Below, piece by piece: positions 9,711-18,837 of a stretch of 58,047 nucleotides of DNA. This stretch comes from Actinomycetota bacterium (lineage in GTDB: Bacteria; Actinomycetota; Actinomycetes; Nanopelagicales; Nanopelagicaceae): contig CANLHI010000004.1 in the NCBI GenBank assembly GCA_947490845.1, positions 1-58,047 of the forward strand, given 5' to 3'. Position 1 is the first letter of the stretch. Every line of letters starts with the position of its first letter. Position numbers and translations under genes: made by a program. The notes beneath the pieces are model-generated. The model ran no database searches. It was not told where the DNA came from and was given only the letters and a program-made list of their open reading frames with translations.

Positions 9711-11912
9711 ATGGAAACGCGCTCCTTTGCAGATTACTTACGTACCCTGGATGACGCTGCCCTAATTTCGCTCTTTACGCATCGCCCTGATCTGGTAACC
9801 CCAGTTCCACCAGATATTGCATCCCTTGCAGTGCGCGCAACATCTGCGCCAAGTTTGGCTAGGGCAATTGATTCGCTAAATGCTTGGCAATACCAAGTTC
9901 TCGAAGCGTGCGCTGTTGCAGCAGAACCATTTAATGAAAAGCAGATTGCAGCACTAACCGATAAGGCGGCGTTATTTGCACTTCCTGGGCTTATTGAACG
10001 TGGCCTGGTTTATTCAGGAAGAGATGGTTTATATATCCCCACAACACTTCGTGAAGTTCTGGGTAATGAAATTGCTGGCCTTGGCCCGCAGTCAATGGCA
10101 AAACTTTCACTTAAAAAATTAGATGAGGCGCCGGTGCCGGCCCAGAAAGCTTTGGATGCGATGGTTTGGGGTCCGCCTCGTGGAACTGTGGCAGATATTA
10201 AGAAACCTAGCGCCGGAGTTGCCTGGTTGCTCGAAAATGATTTTGTAATTGTTGCTAATTCTCACACCGTGTTGATGCCGCGTGAAGTTGCTATTTATTT
10301 GCGTGGTGGAAAAGTTCATAAAGATTTGGCGATACAAGCACCTAAGATTTCAGGTAGTAAGCGCGATGCAAAAAGTGTTCAGTTAGCGGCTATTGCCAAC
10401 GTTTCAACTTACTTGCGTTGGACTGAAGAGATTCTAAATTTCTGGGCCCAAGAGCCGGCAGATGCGCTACGTTCTGGTGGTCTTGGCGTGCGCGATCTAA
10501 AAAACATTTCTACCCATCTAGGAGTCGATTCAAATTGCGCGGCCTTCGTTGCCGAATTGGCTTATTTGGCGGGTCTACTAACAATTGATGCCGATGATCG
10601 AATTCTTCCATCCAGCCAATTTGATATTTGGCTCACCCAACAACCATCGACTCGTTGGGAATCACTTGTCTCGCAATGGTTAATTACTTCACGCGTCAGT
10701 GGGTTGGTTGGCAAAGAAGAATCAAAAAATGTGGCACCACTTGGCCCTGAACTAGATCGCGTTGCAGCATCTTCCATTAGAAAATTAACGCTACGTTTAT
10801 TGCAAGAAAGCCCTGAGATAGCACCAGACTTTGAGCCGCTTTCGGCACTTGCTAATTGGCATATGCCCGCTAAGCGCAGTGGTGGAATTCAAGTTGATTA
10901 CGTGCAATGGACTTTACGTGAGGCCGAATGGCTTGGTATTACTGGGCAGGGCGCTATCTCTAAATACGGAATTGCCTTGTTGCAGGGTGATGAATTAGAT
11001 GGAATAAACGAGGATCTTCCAAAGCCAGTTGATCACATACTTATTCAGAGTGATCACACTGCAATCGCTCCTGGCCCGCTAGAACATGAAGTTGCCCAAG
11101 AGTTGGCAATCTTGGCGGACATTGAAAGCCGTGGAGGCGCAACTGTTTATCGTTTCAGTGAAGCCACAATTCGCCGAGGATTAGATCATGGTCGCACCGG
11201 TGATGAAATAAAAGCATTCCTAAAGAAAACTTCTAAGACACCGATGCCACAACCGCTGGAATATTTAATTGCAGATGTCGCGAAGAAACATGGAAAGTTG
11301 CGAGTTGGTAACACTTCATCATTTATTCGTTGTGAAGATTCCGCGCTTATCGCCCAAATCATTAGTGATAAACGTTTAGATATTTTGCAGTTGCGCCAGA
11401 TCGCACCTGAGGTTCTTATCTGCCAACATGATGCCGCCGATGCCATGAATATTCTGCGCAGTTTCGGTTACTTGCCAGCCGGTGAAGATTCACAAGGATC
11501 TTTACTTAGCGGCCCACGTATTCAACGTGCCAAATCTAAAGCACGCCCACCACGCATTATCGGAGAATTTGATCGACCAGATGAGTTACAACTCGAGGGC
11601 GCACTGCGCGCTCTGCGCACTGGAGAAAAATCTAGCCACCGCCAAAGTACTTTGCGCAATATTGCAGCCAGCGCCCTCGGTTCACTTCCGCGCACAACTG
11701 CAAATGAAACGCTAGATATTCTGGCGGACTATCTGCAAAATCAACCAGCAACATCTCTTTCAATTGGATATGCCGATAACAATGGCCTTGTTTCACATCG
11801 CATCATCGATCCGCTAAAACTCTCAGCTGGTTCGCTCATCGCCCGAGATCACGCAACCGGTGAGGTGCAGACCTTTAGAATTGCGCGAATTACAGGGGTG
11901 GCTTCAATATGA
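9711..11912 (+). CDS. Helicase-associated protein (XPB/Ssl2 N-terminal-like domain)
   Basis: A 733-residue protein of the family found next to the bacterial XPB helicase in many Actinobacteria (Mycobacterium has a homologous neighbour pair). The N-terminal half is winged-helix-like (FADYLRTLDDAALISLFTHR at 5-24), and the region IQSDHTAIAPGPLEHEVAQE near 445 resembles the helicase_C_3/XPB N-terminal domain. No Walker motifs are present, so it is not itself an ATPase; a DNA-binding or regulatory partner role for XPB is inferred. TAATGT ends 9 nt before the ATG. The stop overlaps the M20 peptidase start by 4 nt. Confidence 0.85.
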   Translation: METRSFADYLRTLDDAALISLFTHRPDLVTPVPPDIASLAVRATSAPSLARAIDSLNAWQYQVLEACAVAAEPFNEKQIAALTDKAALFALPGLIERGLVYSGRDGLYIPTTLREVLGNEIAGLGPQSMAKLSLKKLDEAPVPAQKALDAMVWGPPRGTVADIKKPSAGVAWLLENDFVIVANSHTVLMPREVAIYLRGGKVHKDLAIQAPKISGSKRDAKSVQLAAIANVSTYLRWTEEILNFWAQEPADALRSGGLGVRDLKNISTHLGVDSNCAAFVAELAYLAGLLTIDADDRILPSSQFDIWLTQQPSTRWESLVSQWLITSRVSGLVGKEESKNVAPLGPELDRVAASSIRKLTLRLLQESPEIAPDFEPLSALANWHMPAKRSGGIQVDYVQWTLREAEWLGITGQGAISKYGIALLQGDELDGINEDLPKPVDHILIQSDHTAIAPGPLEHEVAQELAILADIESRGGATVYRFSEATIRRGLDHGRTGDEIKAFLKKTSKTPMPQPLEYLIADVAKKHGKLRVGNTSSFIRCEDSALIAQIISDKRLDILQLRQIAPEVLICQHDAADAMNILRSFGYLPAGEDSQGSLLSGPRIQRAKSKARPPRIIGEFDRPDELQLEGALRALRTGEKSSHRQSTLRNIAASALGSLPRTTANETLDILADYLQNQPATSLSIGYADNNGLVSHRIIDPLKLSAGSLIARDHATGEVQTFRIARITGVASI

Positions 11913-13018
11913 CGAGCACGAAAGAGGCTACATACGGCAGACTTGACCCTATGTTGGCGGCGATTGAAGCTTTAGTTAGATGTGAATCACCTAGCGAAGA
12001 TTTAGCTGCCTGCCAGAACGTGGTGCGACTAGCAAGTGATATCGCAACTCGCGTACTTGGAACACCAGCCCAAATAAAAGAAGTTGAAGGCCGTCCGGTC
12101 TTTTGGTGGGGTGCGAACGCACCTGAAATTTTATTGCTAGCTCACCTCGACACCGTTTGGCCTCATGGTTCCTACTCTCCACTTTGGGAAGTAAACGGTG
12201 ATGTAGTCCGCGGCCCAGGTGTATTTGATATGAAGGCTGGCTTTGTGCAGGCGCTCTTTGCTCTTAAAGATATTGATGGCGCCGCAGATCGCGTGGCGCT
12301 GGTTGCAACAACTGATGAAGAAATTGGATCTTTTACATCACGTAAATTAATTATGGATCTCTCTGCCAAAGCCAAGGCTGTCTTAGTACTTGAAGCTTCC
12401 CTTGGCGGCAAAGTTAAGACCGGGCGTAAAGGCACGGCGATGTACAAAATTAACGTCCACGGTTTAGCCGCACATGCTGGGCTCGAACCCGAAAAAGGCG
12501 TAAATGCCACCGTGGAAATCGCACACATTATTTTGCAACTTTCGGCGCTAGAAAACACTCAGCATGGAACAACAGTTGTTCCAACATTATTAAAATCCGG
12601 AAATAGCGCCAATACTGTTCCTGATTTGGCAGTGCTTGAAATTGATGCTCGCTCATTTGCGCAGTCTGAGCTCGAAAGAATAGATGCAGCAGTTAAAGCA
12701 ATTAAGCCAACTATTACTGGTGCGCGCTTAGAAATTACTGGAGGTCTTAATCGACCACCGCTTCAGCCATCATCGACGAAAGAATTGTATGAACAAATTG
12801 AAAGAGTTGCTAAAGAGATCGGCATGGCACCTCTTGGATGCGCTGAAGTAGGCGGTGCCAGCGATGGAAACTTTGCAGCAGCAGCGGGTGCGCAAGTTCT
12901 AGATGGTTTGGGTGCAATTGGTGGCGGAGCGCATGCACCAAGTGAATGGTTGAGTCTGAAATCTGTTGAAGAACGAAGTGCACTTCTGCATGCCTTTATA
13001 AAGGATCTACTTAAATGA
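11909..13018 (+). CDS. M20 family metallopeptidase (carboxypeptidase G2/ArgE-like)
   Basis: Cytoplasmic zinc amidohydrolase or peptidase of 369 residues; no signal peptide is seen. Motifs are AHLDTVWP (His79 ligand, Asp81), RGPGVFDMKAG (bridging Asp107), TTDEEIGS (catalytic Glu137, Glu138), and C-terminal GGAHAPSEWL with a zinc histidine. The HTDTV/GPGV..MK pattern places it with the glutamate carboxypeptidase/ArgE branch. It is coupled on both sides by ATGA overlaps between the helicase-associated gene and XPB, an unusual site for a peptidase. The substrate is unknown. Confidence 0.88.
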   Translation: MTSTKEATYGRLDPMLAAIEALVRCESPSEDLAACQNVVRLASDIATRVLGTPAQIKEVEGRPVFWWGANAPEILLLAHLDTVWPHGSYSPLWEVNGDVVRGPGVFDMKAGFVQALFALKDIDGAADRVALVATTDEEIGSFTSRKLIMDLSAKAKAVLVLEASLGGKVKTGRKGTAMYKINVHGLAAHAGLEPEKGVNATVEIAHIILQLSALENTQHGTTVVPTLLKSGNSANTVPDLAVLEIDARSFAQSELERIDAAVKAIKPTITGARLEITGGLNRPPLQPSSTKELYEQIERVAKEIGMAPLGCAEVGGASDGNFAAAAGAQVLDGLGAIGGGAHAPSEWLSLKSVEERSALLHAFIKDLLK

Positions 13019-14664
13019 GCGAAGGTCCACTAATCGTCCAGAGCGATAAAACGCTATTGCTAGATATTGACCATCCGAATTCCACTGAATGTCGCCGCGC
13101 TATTGCACCCTTTGCTGAACTAGAGCGATCACCAGAACATATTCACACTTATCGCTTAACAAATTTGGGGCTCTGGAATGCGCGCGCTGCCGGCCACGAT
13201 GCCGAGTTAGTAATTGACACTCTTATTAAATATTCACGTTACGCGGTTCCACATTCTTTATTAGTCGATGTTGCCGAAACTATGTCTCGCTATGGCCGCC
13301 TGCGCTTAGAGGCGGATCCCGTCCATGGACTTATCTTGATCACAACCGATGTTGGCGTTCTAGAAGAAGTTATCCGTGCCAAGAAGATTGCTCCCCTGCT
13401 TGGTGTGCGCATCGATCCTGAAACTATTGCAGTACATCCCAGCCAACGTGGTGCGATTAAACAATCACTGTTGCGCTTGGGCTGGCCGGCTGAAGATTTT
13501 GCAGGTTACGTAGATGGCCAGGCACATGAGATTTCGTTAAAACAAGAAGACTGGAAAATTCGCCCGTATCAAGAGTTGGCAGCCGAAGGCTTTTGGCACG
13601 GTGGTTCTGGTGTGGTTGTTCTCCCCTGCGGTGCTGGAAAAACAATTGTCGGCGCCGCCGCAATGGCACACGCCAAAGCAACAACTTTAATTTTGGTTAC
13701 CAACACAATCGCTGCTCGTCAGTGGCGCGAAGAATTATTGCGTCGCACAACTTTAAATGAAGATGAAATTGGCGAATATTCAGGTGCGAAGAAAGAGATT
13801 CGCCCCGTAACAATTGCTACCTACCAAGTTATGACTAAGAAGAAAAATGGTGTCTATTCCCACCTTGATCTCTTCGACACCCATGACTGGGGGCTAATCA
13901 TTTATGACGAAGTGCATTTGCTGCCTGCGCCAATTTTCCGCTTCACCGCCGATATCCAATCACGCCGCCGCTTGGGCCTTACTGCGACCTTGGTTCGTGA
14001 AGATGGCATGGAAGGCGAAGTTTTCTCACTGATCGGACCAAAGCGTTTTGATGTTCCTTGGAAAGAAATTGAAGCTCAGGGATATATCGCACCGGCTGAA
14101 TGTATTGAAGTAAGAGTGAATTTAACTGAGGCTGAACGGCTGGAATATGCAACGGCCGAACCAGAAGAGCGTTATCGCAAATGTGCAACTACCCGCACCA
14201 AACGCGATGTAGTTGAAGAGCTAGTTGGATTACACGCCGGTGAGCAAATATTGGTGATCGGCCAATACATTGATCAACTAGATGATCTTTCTGCAACGCT
14301 GGGTGTTCCCGTAATCAAAGGTGAAACGCCTATAAAGGAGCGCGAACAGTTATTTGCCGCTTTCCGTACTGGTGAAATCACCTGCCTAGTTGTTTCAAAA
14401 GTTGCTAACTTCTCAATTGATCTACCGGAAGCCACAATTGCGATTCAGGTATCCGGGGCATTTGGTTCACGCCAAGAAGAAGCACAAAGACTTGGTCGAA
14501 TCGTGCGCCCAAAGGCTGATGGACGTGGTGCAAAGTTTTATTCAGTTGTCTCGCGAGACACTATTGACCAAGATTTTGCGCAAAATCGCCAACGCTTCCT
14601 GGCAGAGCAAGGTTATTCGTATCGAATTATTGATGCTGACGATGTTTTTCAAGGCAAGATCTAA
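13015..14664 (+). CDS. XPB-type DNA repair helicase
   Basis: Superfamily 2 3'-5' DNA helicase homologous to eukaryotic XPB/Rad25, inferred to act in repair or transcription-coupled processes. The 549 residues include an N-terminal damage-recognition-like region (about 40-160), Walker A LPCGAGKT (203-210), DEVH box (298-301), motif III TAT (323-325), the XPB-specific RED motif (328-330), and motif VI QEEAQRLGRIVRPK. The ATG overlaps the M20 stop by 4 nt. The 3' end overlaps the convergent glutaredoxin-like gene by 38 nt. Confidence 0.95.
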   Translation: MSEGPLIVQSDKTLLLDIDHPNSTECRRAIAPFAELERSPEHIHTYRLTNLGLWNARAAGHDAELVIDTLIKYSRYAVPHSLLVDVAETMSRYGRLRLEADPVHGLILITTDVGVLEEVIRAKKIAPLLGVRIDPETIAVHPSQRGAIKQSLLRLGWPAEDFAGYVDGQAHEISLKQEDWKIRPYQELAAEGFWHGGSGVVVLPCGAGKTIVGAAAMAHAKATTLILVTNTIAARQWREELLRRTTLNEDEIGEYSGAKKEIRPVTIATYQVMTKKKNGVYSHLDLFDTHDWGLIIYDEVHLLPAPIFRFTADIQSRRRLGLTATLVREDGMEGEVFSLIGPKRFDVPWKEIEAQGYIAPAECIEVRVNLTEAERLEYATAEPEERYRKCATTRTKRDVVEELVGLHAGEQILVIGQYIDQLDDLSATLGVPVIKGETPIKEREQLFAAFRTGEITCLVVSKVANFSIDLPEATIAIQVSGAFGSRQEEAQRLGRIVRPKADGRGAKFYSVVSRDTIDQDFAQNRQRFLAEQGYSYRIIDADDVFQGKI

Positions 14665-14881
14665 ATCTTTCCGGATCCACTTTATAGAAATCGTGATGTT
14701 CTCCATCTATATGGATAACAGGTACCTCGTGCCCATAAAGTTTCTCTAATTGGGCATCGCTATCAATAAATTTAATCTCTATCTCAAAATCTAATTCTGC
14801 TTTTAAAGTCTCAAGGGTTGCTTCTGCAACTTCGCAGAGATGACAACCATGGCGTGAATAAACCGTAATTAGGTTTTTCAC
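14627..14881 (-). CDS. Glutaredoxin-like protein (DUF836 type)
   Basis: Small 84-residue thioredoxin-fold protein with the redox pair Cys13-X-X-Cys16 in YSRHGCHLCEVA and a cis-proline in EVPVIHIDG (about 51-59). This matches the stand-alone glutaredoxin family protein (DUF836) common in Actinobacteria. It starts with GTG overlapping the stop of the upstream unknown gene (GTGA), so the two are coupled. Its end runs 38 nt into the end of the XPB gene on the other strand. Confidence 0.85.
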   Translation of the reverse strand: MKNLITVYSRHGCHLCEVAEATLETLKAELDFEIEIKFIDSDAQLEKLYGHEVPVIHIDGEHHDFYKVDPERFRSCLEKHRQHQ

Positions 14882-15222
14882 TTTTTCTTTGGGCTCTTAG
14901 CCGTCTTTGATGTGAATGCTCGGTCTACTAGCTCTTGAATTACCAGAGTGGCATCACCTTTGGCGCGATACAAGTTTTCTTCAGCGTTCTTCAATAAAGT
15001 TTCCGCAGTTGTTTTTGAAACAGTACCAACCAGTGGACCATACTTCTTTGAGAAAATCATGTGAGCGATCTGTCCAATTGAGTCTGCAAGTTCGGTTCTT
15101 GCTTCATCAAGGGTTGGTTCAGGTCGAGCGCTAATAGATGAGAAATTAAGAACTATTGGACGCTCTGATTTCATGCGCGCAATTGCACCTGCTATCCCAG
15201 CATCTGCACTATTTGGTGACAT
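14878..15222 (-). CDS. Unknown 114-residue soluble protein
   Basis: I do not recognise a family. The protein is soluble and helix-rich by eye, with no cysteines, no membrane segment, and a lysine-rich tail (TSKTAKSPKKK). The middle reads DSIGQIAHMIFSKKYGPLVG. Reasons to accept it as real are the GTGA coupling to the glutaredoxin gene, the divergent position opposite the secreted metalloprotease across 35 bp, and a GAGAAT hexamer (15229-15234) ending 6 nt before its ATG. A later in-frame ATG (residue 17) is possible. Confidence 0.6.
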   Translation of the reverse strand: MSPNSADAGIAGAIARMKSERPIVLNFSSISARPEPTLDEARTELADSIGQIAHMIFSKKYGPLVGTVSKTTAETLLKNAEENLYRAKGDATLVIQELVDRAFTSKTAKSPKKK

Positions 15223-15257: not shown

Positions 15258-17639
15258 ATGGCAAGGAAAAATCCTAGGTATCTCGCGCGAAACTTCGCGA
15301 TATCCACACTTTTTGCCACTTTACTTATTGGTTTTCTGACTCCAATTTCTGCAGACGCCTTAATTCTGGTTCGCCCAGCAACTCAATGGGGTTATGTCTA
15401 TGCCGGACCCGCATCCAGTGCAAACCAGACTGCTAAACCTAAGGTTGCAAATCTAGAAAAGAAATCAAAGATTGTTGTTAAGTACAACAATTTTCCAGAG
15501 TGGACCAAGGTACAGGTGCAAGCAGCGGTAGATGTTTGGGCTGCAAATTTCGAATCTAAAGTTCCAATCTATATCGATGCCACATGGGGACGTTCTTCAT
15601 CATTTAGTGTTTTAGGTAGTGCGCGCGCGGGCAGTTACTTTGCAAATTTTCCAGGCGCTCCTGATTCCAGCCTCTGGTATCCATCTGCGCTAGCAAATGC
15701 GCTAGCTGGAAAAGATTTAGATGGCGATAACCCCGAAATGATTATCACCGTTAATTCATTGGCTAGTTGGTATAGCGGTACCGGCGTTGGCCCAAGTAAA
15801 ACTGAATACGATCTGCAATCAGTTATCTTGCACGAAATGGCACACGGTTTGGGTTTTCTATCTACCGATAGTTATGACAGTTTTTTTGGATATGGATCGA
15901 TAGATCAACCAACACCATACGATGCCTATGTTCAGACTGGTGATGGGCGACGTTTATCTGATCTACCTTCACCTTCACTAGAACTCGGTGAGGCGTTAAC
16001 TTCAAAGTTAGTTTGGTCAGGACAGCAGGGAATCGCAGCTAATGGTGGTGTTAAACCACTTCTTTATACGCCAAAGAAATACGAAGATGGATCTTCGGTA
16101 AGCCATTTAGATGAAGCAACTTTCTCCAAGGCTGGCCCTGATGCGGTTATGTCGCCAAATTTAGATGCGGGAGAAATTTTTCATCAGCCTGGCCCACTTT
16201 TGCTCGCCATGATGCAAGATCTACGCGCAAAGCCGCCGGTTGGAATAGCAGTTGGTATTCCACAAACGGTGCGCAATGCCCAAGCTCTGGTCTCTGATTC
16301 AGGGGCAATAATTAAATTTGATCCGCCAGCAAATGCGCGCGCTGCTCAGATAACTAGTTATACGGTTAAAAACGATAAGACTGGCGCCGAAAAAAGCTTT
16401 ACTTCAAGTCCTGCCACGCTAACTGGCTTAAAGAATGGCACTAGTTACACCTTCTCTATTACTGCGCTAAATTCTTTGGGTTCCTCCGACCCAGTTACAA
16501 CTAATTCCATAACCCCACAAGCCTCATGGAAGAAGACTGTTATTGATCCGCTTGCCGATGCTCGCAACCTAACTACGGTTACCTTCAACACCAATCCTGC
16601 AATTATTTATCAGGATGTAATAAACGGTGCCTTGAAGGTTGCACTTTGGAACGGCAAGATTTGGAATAAGTTAACTGTCGATGGAAGAGGCGGATCTGCT
16701 GGCCGTACTCGCAATGCAATATCTGGCAAAGTCTCTGCATGCGTTAGCGGCTTCGGCAAAGCACAGACATTACATATTTTCTATGCTGATTCTGTAGATA
16801 AAGATCTGAGATATGCCACCTATGATGGCAAGGCTTTCAAATATGAAATAGTTGATGGCAACGGGGCGGCAATTAATAGCTATGAAGACCCGATCCGCGT
16901 GCGCACTGCCAGTGATGTCAGTGTTTCAAATGCCTGTTCAGTGAGTTCAGCAGGGGTGCAAGTTTTTTATCGCGATGAATCACAAGGAATTCTGCTTGGC
17001 GCAGTTCGCGCCAAGGGCTCTCCTGATTGGCGATACGAGCTAGTTGATGGCGATCGCAAAACAGATGATCGAACCACTGGCGATGTTGCATTCCACTTAG
17101 ATGCTCTCTTTGATGGCAAAGATACAATTTTGCTATATGACTCTGTCTTAACAATTAATCAACGCAAAGAAGCTACCTCTGGCGCCATTCGCGTAGCCCA
17201 GCGCAATGGCTTGAGTGCTACTGCTTGGAAATATCAGACCCTTGATACATCAGGCGGTCCAATTGCGGTTGTGGGCTATGACGTTGCTCTGCAAAAAGGT
17301 GCACGTGGCATCCTTGCTACCTGGCTCACCTCATCAACGCTTAGCCTGCCGAATGCGGATCAAATTCGATGGGCTTATCTAGCAACTCCAACAATTTTTA
17401 AAACTTTTGCTACAACTGGTTATGGAACGCCAAGTAAATTCTTGAGTAGCGATGGAGCAACCAGCGTCTTTAACTGCCAAAGCCGCCTCTGCGCAGTAGA
17501 TGTTGCAAAGGGAACCCTCTCTCTGGTTGCCAAAGAACAGAGCTTAGATGGATTTGATTCCGCCTGGATAGTCCTTAATAAGGTGCGATATTTAATATCT
17601 GGAGTTAAGAACCAATTGGTTTCACTGCGACCGCTGTAA
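15258..17639 (+). CDS. Secreted matrixin-like metalloprotease with fibronectin type III domain
   Basis: A 793-residue exported protein. A signal peptide of about 34 residues (RNFAISTLFATLLIGFL, then ISADA) precedes a metalloprotease domain with LHEMAHGLGF (zinc His192, Glu193, His196). An Fn3-like domain follows at about 340-430 (ITSYTVKNDKTGAEKSF, LKNGTSYTFSITALN), then a 350-residue repetitive beta-rich region, perhaps a propeller. The usual third zinc ligand of HEXXHXXGXXH is replaced by Ser. The open frame extends 34 codons upstream, but TAGCGT ends 8 nt before this ATG and the signal peptide begins here. The target is unknown. Confidence 0.8.
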   Translation: MARKNPRYLARNFAISTLFATLLIGFLTPISADALILVRPATQWGYVYAGPASSANQTAKPKVANLEKKSKIVVKYNNFPEWTKVQVQAAVDVWAANFESKVPIYIDATWGRSSSFSVLGSARAGSYFANFPGAPDSSLWYPSALANALAGKDLDGDNPEMIITVNSLASWYSGTGVGPSKTEYDLQSVILHEMAHGLGFLSTDSYDSFFGYGSIDQPTPYDAYVQTGDGRRLSDLPSPSLELGEALTSKLVWSGQQGIAANGGVKPLLYTPKKYEDGSSVSHLDEATFSKAGPDAVMSPNLDAGEIFHQPGPLLLAMMQDLRAKPPVGIAVGIPQTVRNAQALVSDSGAIIKFDPPANARAAQITSYTVKNDKTGAEKSFTSSPATLTGLKNGTSYTFSITALNSLGSSDPVTTNSITPQASWKKTVIDPLADARNLTTVTFNTNPAIIYQDVINGALKVALWNGKIWNKLTVDGRGGSAGRTRNAISGKVSACVSGFGKAQTLHIFYADSVDKDLRYATYDGKAFKYEIVDGNGAAINSYEDPIRVRTASDVSVSNACSVSSAGVQVFYRDESQGILLGAVRAKGSPDWRYELVDGDRKTDDRTTGDVAFHLDALFDGKDTILLYDSVLTINQRKEATSGAIRVAQRNGLSATAWKYQTLDTSGGPIAVVGYDVALQKGARGILATWLTSSTLSLPNADQIRWAYLATPTIFKTFATTGYGTPSKFLSSDGATSVFNCQSRLCAVDVAKGTLSLVAKEQSLDGFDSAWIVLNKVRYLISGVKNQLVSLRPL

Positions 17640-17640
17640 T

Positions 17641-18837
17641 TTAACTATTTGATACTTGCAAGATCTTTCCATCGCCAGTTAGCAAAAATAAACCAGCAGT
17701 ACTTGAATACGTTGATGAAATAGCCGAAGTTAATTCTGATGAAGTAAAGGCGCTGATCAGTAAGCCTTTGCTATCAAATTGCAATACAACCGATTGTCCT
17801 TTGATTGCTTTAAACCCAGTCACGCCTTTGATTGCCGAAGTTGGTTCAAGAATTGCATAGAACGAACCTTTCGCACCGCTCGATGCCAATGTTCTGCCAG
17901 TTGAAGGGATTCGAGTTGTCCATGAAGGTATAAATGAAGAGTTGAATTTAGTTAGCGCACTCTCAACAGTTGTTCCGCTTCTTACTGAGCCAGTTACAAA
18001 GAGTGAACTTGTTGTGCTCTGCCAATCACGAATTCCTTTGGGCGCACTACTGCGAACGACGCCAGTTATAGATCCAGTCTTAGCAACCTTGATCAAGGCT
18101 CCATCTACCCTGCCCACCAACTTCTTGCCGCCGAGTGTTTCACTGCTAGATCCAAATAAATAAGTTGTCCCATCGCCGCTGCGCGTTATGGCACTTATCT
18201 TTGTCTTTGCGCTACCAATCTTTAACTCTTTTGAGAACTTGCCTTCAGCGAGCGTTATTAAGAAAGGTTCGCTATCGCGAGAGGCCAATATCGAAAGCCC
18301 GGATGTACTAACCGAAATAGCATCTATCAAGGCCACCGTTGCAATTGAGCTCTGGCCAATCACTTCGCCAGTTGCGCTGATCTGCCAGACTGAAATGTTT
18401 TTCATATCAGCACGCAGCGGTGGAATATTTTCAACTTCAATCCCATCAGGATTTAGTGCCCCTGTTACAACTGTTACTGATTCGGGTTGTGGGGCAATAG
18501 CGATATTTCCAACCAGCCAAAGTGTTCCCTGTGAATCAATGGCCATTGCCGTTGCTAGCTCATCTAAGCCAGAATCAACTGTTTTCGACCAGATTTCAGT
18601 ACCAGCGAAATCAAATGCCCGAACCTTAATATCAGCGTTACCCCCCATGATATTTTCGTAAGTAAAAATCGCCTTGCTGTTTGCAACAATGGCTTCAGCG
18701 CTAGAACTTTGACTAAATACTTTAAGCGGCTTTATAGAAACTGATTTAGGCGCGCCTTGCGCAACGCTGGTCATCGCAAGGCAGGCAATGACTGCAGATA
18801 CTAGATATTTTCTAAGCAAGTTCTTGCGAGCGATCAC
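17641..18837 (-). CDS. Secreted repeat protein, PQQ/beta-propeller-like
   Basis: A 398-residue protein with an N-terminal signal peptide (LLRKYLVSAVIACLAMTSVAQG) and a body of short beta-strand repeats such as VRAFDFAGTEIWSKTVDSG and TLWLVGNIAIA, which suggest a PQQ-like propeller. No catalytic motif is recognisable. GTG at 18837 lies inside the end of proC (26 nt overlap), so it is probably translated from the proC transcript. Its stop codon is one base away from the stop of the convergent metalloprotease gene. A role at the cell surface is inferred only from the signal peptide. Confidence 0.7.
   Translation of the reverse strand: MIARKNLLRKYLVSAVIACLAMTSVAQGAPKSVSIKPLKVFSQSSSAEAIVANSKAIFTYENIMGGNADIKVRAFDFAGTEIWSKTVDSGLDELATAMAIDSQGTLWLVGNIAIAPQPESVTVVTGALNPDGIEVENIPPLRADMKNISVWQISATGEVIGQSSIATVALIDAISVSTSGLSILASRDSEPFLITLAEGKFSKELKIGSAKTKISAITRSGDGTTYLFGSSSETLGGKKLVGRVDGALIKVAKTGSITGVVRSSAPKGIRDWQSTTSSLFVTGSVRSGTTVESALTKFNSSFIPSWTTRIPSTGRTLASSGAKGSFYAILEPTSAIKGVTGFKAIKGQSVVLQFDSKGLLISAFTSSELTSAISSTYSSTAGLFLLTGDGKILQVSNS

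Follow-up and report, generated by a model that had tools for sequence, protein, structure and literature searches.

The window analysed here, a 58,047-nucleotide stretch of DNA from a Nanopelagicales genome, contains at positions 15258-17639 of the forward strand an open frame of 793 amino acids, whose translation near relatives align with from the identical start methionine. The Nanopelagicales, also known as acI, are among the most abundant lake bacteria. The frame is a real gene: whole-genome searches matched its product in 147 of 151 order genomes, and its dN/dS ratio over the full gene against a near relative (L070) is 0.078. The features assigned to it are the following, all on the forward strand:

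15258-17639, forward: whole gene, 793-residue secreted metalloprotease (predicted), from the frame, the order-wide matches and the shared start
15258-15359, forward: putative Sec-type signal peptide, residues 1-34, ending in SADA, from hydropathy and the list of Cys residues
15453-16247, forward: predicted zinc protease domain, residues 66-330, from a sub-cut-off match to NF038122 and from a model and its fold match to leishmanolysin
15831-15857, forward: HEMAHGLGF, residues 192-200, with putative ligands His192 and His196, putative catalytic Glu193, and Gly199, conserved in 83 of 83 order rows
15858-16103, forward: roughly 80 inserted residues separating the helix motif from the predicted third ligand, from the alignment and a His196-His283 spacing of 87 in 75 of 81 order rows
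16089-16112, forward: GSSVSHLD, residues 278-285, in which codon 16104-16106 encodes His283, the predicted third zinc ligand, conserved in all 81 order rows that reach it
16149-16151, forward: Met298, probable Met-turn (VMSPNL), in 81 of 82 order rows
16287-16499, forward: Fn3 domain, residues 344-414, Pfam PF00041, E 2e-7
16527-17636, forward: predicted C-terminal seven-bladed beta-propeller, residues 424-793 (370 residues), from a model with pLDDT mostly 65-90 and a fold match to PLL2

Near the N-terminus, residues 13-27 are strongly hydrophobic (Kyte-Doolittle mean 2.24) and are followed by SADA, a pattern that suggests export through a Sec signal; the first Cys of the protein is residue 495, and there is therefore no lipobox. 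The Fn3 domain scores 31.6 bits against a cut-off of 25 over residues 344-414 and is the sole Pfam match above cut-off, with nothing at that level on the protease domain or the propeller in either Pfam or NCBIfam.

Immediately downstream, the reverse-strand frame at 17641-18837 converges on the protease gene and terminates one base away from its stop codon; the product of this frame has a signal-like N-terminus and weak propeller-like matches (Reg_prop, E 0.2; an SBBP lipoprotein family, 3.2e-5, far under cut-off). This protein evolves faster than the protease (identity of 56% versus 85% in L004 and of 23% versus 52% in L086), and it could be a binding partner of the protease. On the other side, a small reverse-strand gene at 14878-15222 begins 35 bases ahead of the protease start and matches no family above cut-off, and the forward-strand frames at 9711-11912 and 13015-14664 comprise an XPB-type DNA repair helicase (847 bits) and, upstream of it, a gene with a weak XPB match (25 bits) that perhaps encodes a paired accessory protein.

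Zinc site and protease fold

The segment LHEMAHGLGFLSTD spans residues 191-204 of the protein, with HExxH beginning at residue 192. A previous interpretation of the same DNA, made from the letters alone (hereafter the sequence-only reading), had correctly observed that HEMAHGLGF is followed by Ser at the third-ligand position of the HExxHxxGxx[H/D] pattern and by Asp two residues on (Ser202 and Asp204), and had taken the zinc motif to be non-standard, with Ser in place of the third ligand. We counted conservation over 85 distinct order rows, which include the protein of the window and several near-identical ones; five rows whose BLAST range was too short (L093, an N-terminal fragment, and L099, L100, L101 and L103) were left out, and L090, L091, L107 and L109 are uncounted at positions that they do not reach. 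His192, Glu193, His196 and Gly199 are invariant in all 83 order rows reaching these positions, so that the HExxHxxG helix motif of metzincins is present throughout. His283, located 87 residues downstream of His196 in the context GSS-x-SH-[LIV]-D and followed by Met298, is likewise invariant in the 81 order rows that reach it, with the spacing of 87 residues kept in 75 of them, and Met298 is found in 81 of 82 rows, with Leu in its place in L051 alone. His192, His196 and His283 are also the only invariant His residues when 22 rows of the protease domain are aligned. Outside the order, all nine aligned rows (seven distinct proteins, since L068 and L069 repeat parts of L094 and L095) carry all three His together with the Glu and the Met, and visual inspection shows the distant His also in the four outside rows left out of the count (L099, L100, L101 and L103).

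As candidates for the third ligand, Ser202 (kept in 81 of 83 order rows) and Asp204 (kept in 55 of 83) are contradicted by the invariance of His283 (81 of 81). The third zinc ligand is thus predicted to be His283, behind an insertion of about 80 residues, and the site, once this residue is found, would be an ordinary one, with a third His after the Gly and a Met-turn Met further downstream, as in metzincins (clan MA(M)). The claim of a non-standard motif accordingly falls, and by the very observation that the sequence-only reading had named as contrary to it, a standard third ligand aligned elsewhere. This ligand assignment rests on conservation because the model is of low confidence around His283. 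Zinc binding and peptidase activity would be expected of a protein with these residues. Separately, the most divergent order homologue (L051, from genome G130; 33% identity) combines the Leu at the Met-turn with a motif end altered to GIISGAS and is possibly drifting in function.

Structural predictions were obtained for the protease domain alone (22 rows; mean pLDDT 59, pTM 0.64, with the His283 stretch below 50) and for the full-length protein (16 rows), in which the protease half mostly lies below a pLDDT of 50 and only the Fn3 and C-terminal domains are good. The top VIA-align 2 match of the protease model (pLDDT 59) was leishmanolysin (1lml; Z 11.1, with 180 residues aligned at rmsd 3.6 and 17% identity), in a superposition that spans residues 105-367 of the chain and includes the ligands H264, H268 and H334. 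Stromelysin-3 and karilysin followed with Z 8.5 (121 residues), and matrixins with Z 8.5 and below; Foldseek results on the same model were weak, with karilysin as the best match (E 2.3e-3). A leishmanolysin-like fold is thus tentatively predicted, and the large secreted protease with an Fn3 domain that the sequence-only reading had proposed is supported, as a metzincin, by the length of 793 residues, the NF038122 and Fn3 matches and this fold match.

Leishmanolysin has a cysteine-switch propeptide and disulfides in its protease domain. The protein of the window, in contrast, has no Cys before residue 495, and therefore neither a cysteine-switch propeptide nor disulfides in the protease domain, and it carries the additional Fn3 and propeller domains. 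In both proteins, a long insertion separates the metzincin HExxHxxG motif from the third His, but the His-to-His distance is 66 residues in leishmanolysin (gp63, family M8) and 87 here, identity is only 17%, and the leishmanolysin profile (PF01457, Peptidase_M8) has zero matches in the whole genome of the window even at E 10. PMC4580569 gives H264, E265, H268 and H334 for leishmanolysin and places an insertion after the Gly, ahead of the third His.

The only curated family match on the protease is NF038122 ('metallo_LGF'; 49.7 bits, E 4.9e-13), which covers residues 137-306 and hence both HExxH and His283, but which stays under its cut-off of 80 bits; over the phylum, this family gave weak matches in 19 of 246 genomes, none of them above cut-off, and a literature search found no paper naming it. 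A sequence search of the PDB returned nothing credible with the protease profile and essentially Fn3 domains only with the full protein. We therefore propose that the protein would work as a leishmanolysin-type metzincin, judging from the alignments and models, and we assign it neither to M8 nor to NF038122, since PF01457 is without a match and NF038122 reaches 49.7 of 80 bits.

C-terminal propeller

The model of residues 421-793 superposed best on the lectins of the PLL/PHL type from Photorhabdus (Z 27-28, rmsd 2.4-2.5 over about 285 residues), with PLL2 as the top match (VIA-align Z 28.0, rmsd 2.4, 285 residues), at only 9-10% identity. By strand count, the domain has seven blades, with strand 424-430 closing the last and one blade lacking a fourth strand in the list, and the seven-bladed fold of PLL-type proteins is thus predicted for it. 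The WD40 propeller Ski8 scored nearly as high (Z 26.9, rmsd 3.6), and the PLL match therefore shows fold, not function. Furthermore, profile searches found neither a Pfam match nor a credible sequence relative of the propeller in the PDB. Excerpts of PMC6943638 describe PLL3 as an L-fucose-binding lectin, PLL proteins as also interacting with O-methylated sugars, and PLL-type lectins as having sugar-binding pockets with a stacking Trp between blades. The models support the propeller fold, and they weakly support a lectin function; binding of a glycan or surface polymer may be supposed.

The long repetitive C-terminal region of the sequence-only reading is therefore recognizable as a 370-residue domain with blade-like repeats, a predicted beta-propeller and not a low-complexity tract. 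The structure prediction that it had recommended for locating the third ligand and defining this domain delivered the second, as the predicted propeller, but left the ligand geometry unseen, with the His283 stretch below a pLDDT of 50.

Distribution, selection and locus conservation

The 147 matched genomes cover 15 of 15 genera of the order, in which genome sizes range from 1.0 to 2.2 Mb. Among the better genomes (completeness of 90% or more, contamination of 5% or less), the gene was present in 104 of 104, and the four order genomes without a match are 79-86% complete. A scan in which each species was represented by a single genome found 24 loci, including Candidatus Planktophila lacus MMS-21-148 (NZ_CP016769.1, 83% identity) as well as loci from other actinobacterial genomes, many of them titled as lake isolates or MAGs. 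By these matches, the window most likely belongs to a Ca. Planktophila. Some MAG records titled 'Bifidobacterium breve' or 'Streptomycetaceae bacterium' (L084, L085, L092, L074) carry the Nanopelagicales locus, and their labels look wrong.

In a class-level sample of 296 genomes, 100 were matched; among the matches listed, most of those outside the order cover the Fn3 stretch only, and the full-length ones come from the 28 order genomes. The C-terminal domain profile was found once in the genome of the window and, among 197 class genomes, in 16, which are exactly the order members of that sample, and the protease profile matched 4 of 246 genomes over the phylum, one of them through a weak 60-residue match. 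Outside the order, the protease domain alone occurs in at least nine genomes (G308, G299, G171, G407, G153, G362, G414, G298 and G197). These actinobacterial relatives have a homologous protease domain (about 26-38% identity) that shares HExxH, the distant His and the Met, but it is combined with Fn3 arrays in frames of more than 2,000 residues, with Fn3 and other modules (Fn3 being present in G308, G299 and G171), or with an N-terminal extension and a C-terminal hydrophobic-Arg tail. The Fn3 arrays and the hydrophobic-Arg tail point to surface-held or exported enzymes. Among the matches listed and in the propeller profile search, none of these relatives has this propeller, and the protease-Fn3-propeller architecture was seen only in Nanopelagicales. 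Plasmid records gave no match to the protein, and none of 105 pattern matches in viral contigs was a relative.

Substitution rates differ along the gene. Against L070, dN/dS is 0.059 in the protease domain, 0.079 in the propeller and 0.182 in the signal and linker, and against L076, where synonymous changes are near saturation, the corresponding values are 0.038, 0.079 and 0.270. By these ratios, the gene is under purifying selection, and the comparative analyses show this together with the conserved putative ligands, the Fn3 domain and near-universality in the order. We also compared the locus in 65 different genomes of the order, and for each neighbor we counted only the loci with enough flanking sequence. 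The convergent propeller-like gene is kept in 58 of 63 loci, the XPB helicase and a glutaredoxin gene in 57 of 63 each, and proC in 38 of 40; the small gene at 14878-15222 is kept in 23 of 63. The locus thus looks like a vertically inherited core and not like a mobile gene.

The order was also searched for two classical families of secreted proteases, with positive controls included. Subtilases (PF00082) were patchy, occurring in 12 of 61 order genomes and not in that of the window, and thermolysin-type (M4) proteases (PF02868) were found in 0 of 61. Some of the order subtilases (e.g. in G004, G008 and G060) lie in frames of more than 1,000 residues.

Literature searches on the organism listed no description of the protein; an earlier mention elsewhere is possible. 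A term search of two acI genome papers returned no 'protease' and two 'peptidase' passages in PMC5574706, and none of the terms in PMC5301498. The protein thus seems not to have been described before.

Proposed function and competing readings

We propose, with a probability of roughly 60%, that the gene encodes an exported metzincin-type zinc endopeptidase with a leishmanolysin-like site, an Fn3 spacer and a surface-binding propeller, serving in peptide supply. In this proposal, His192 and His196 of HEMAH and the distant His283 would hold the zinc, Glu193 would activate the water and Met298 would form the Met-turn. The Fn3 spacer would join the enzyme to the seven-bladed propeller, whose most likely ligand is a glycan or surface polymer, and the protease would thus act at a surface instead of diffusing freely. 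The released peptides would be used by the acI cell, a consumer of amino acids and peptides, and a surface-kept protease would supply them without loss to the water. Passages of PMC5574706 describe acI as reliant on peptides and saccharides, with peptide and amino-acid transporters expressed. More generally, surface-targeted proteolysis, for peptide supply or for envelope maintenance, would be the most likely role, and the suggestion in the sequence-only reading that the protein acts on polymers or at the cell surface is plausible.

The strongest competitor, to which we assign a substantial but smaller chance, is envelope housekeeping, in which the protease processes or trims the cell's own surface proteins while the propeller docks on its own wall or a surface polymer, with no role in feeding. 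A universal single-locus gene could equally encode such an enzyme: the gene is near-universal at a conserved chromosomal position (all 104 better genomes, with the XPB helicase, glutaredoxin and convergent genes kept in 57, 57 and 58 of 63 loci) and under strong purifying selection, and two outside relatives (L097 and L098) end in a hydrophobic stretch and an Arg cluster, an ending seen in proteins held at the surface or in the membrane. However, the neighboring genes serve DNA repair, glutaredoxin and proline synthesis functions, and no obvious substrate gene is linked to the locus.

A catalytically dead relative retained as an adhesin or binding protein is another reading, given that a secreted protease seems expensive for small, free-living acI cells; the remark in the sequence-only reading that the protein is a large investment for a streamlined cell is indeed apt for a gene near-universal in genomes of this size. 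Nevertheless, every putative catalytic residue is invariant, and the protease is the most constrained part of the protein against both L070 and L076, making a dead enzyme very improbable. The same holds for a conventional matrixin (M10) or HEIGH (M57) peptidase whose motif has diverged: Matrixin (PF00413) is the best weak Pfam match (20 of 22 rows, best E 0.0021) and MMPs occupy the lower rows of the fold list, but PF00413 reaches 13.1 bits on the protein against a curated cut-off of 24, leishmanolysin stands clearly higher (Z 11.1 over 180 residues versus 8.5 over 121), and the HExxHxxGxxH spacing of M10, with the third His directly inside the motif, is absent here, where Ser202 takes that place and the third His is distant. 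The term matrixin-like from the sequence-only reading thus holds loosely, for the metzincin core fold shared with matrixins and karilysin, and not for the family. Finally, a non-standard site using Ser202, Asp204 or two His only is barely credible, since Ser is not a usual zinc ligand, however frequent Ser202 may be, Asp204 varies, and an invariant His and a Met-turn lie downstream as in leishmanolysin.

A bolder form of our proposal, which we consider doubtful, is that Nanopelagicales universally have one secreted protease-lectin fusion, with a leishmanolysin-like enzyme held by its propeller on glycan-coated surfaces (their own, or algal and cyanobacterial polymers) and obligate for amino-acid acquisition. 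If this were true, an order regarded as small-molecule uptakers would depend on a secreted protease-lectin for its amino acids. With Fn3 as its only Pfam match above cut-off, the protein would probably be labelled a hypothetical or Fn3 protein, and surveys of metagenomes for extracellular proteases would then miss it; the named putative catalytic residues make it directly testable. Taken together, its presence in every better genome, the purifying selection on it and the patchiness or absence of two classical protease families make this gene a strong candidate for a central, unrecognized function of the Nanopelagicales, which may lie in protein turnover in lakes or in the upkeep of the cell surface.
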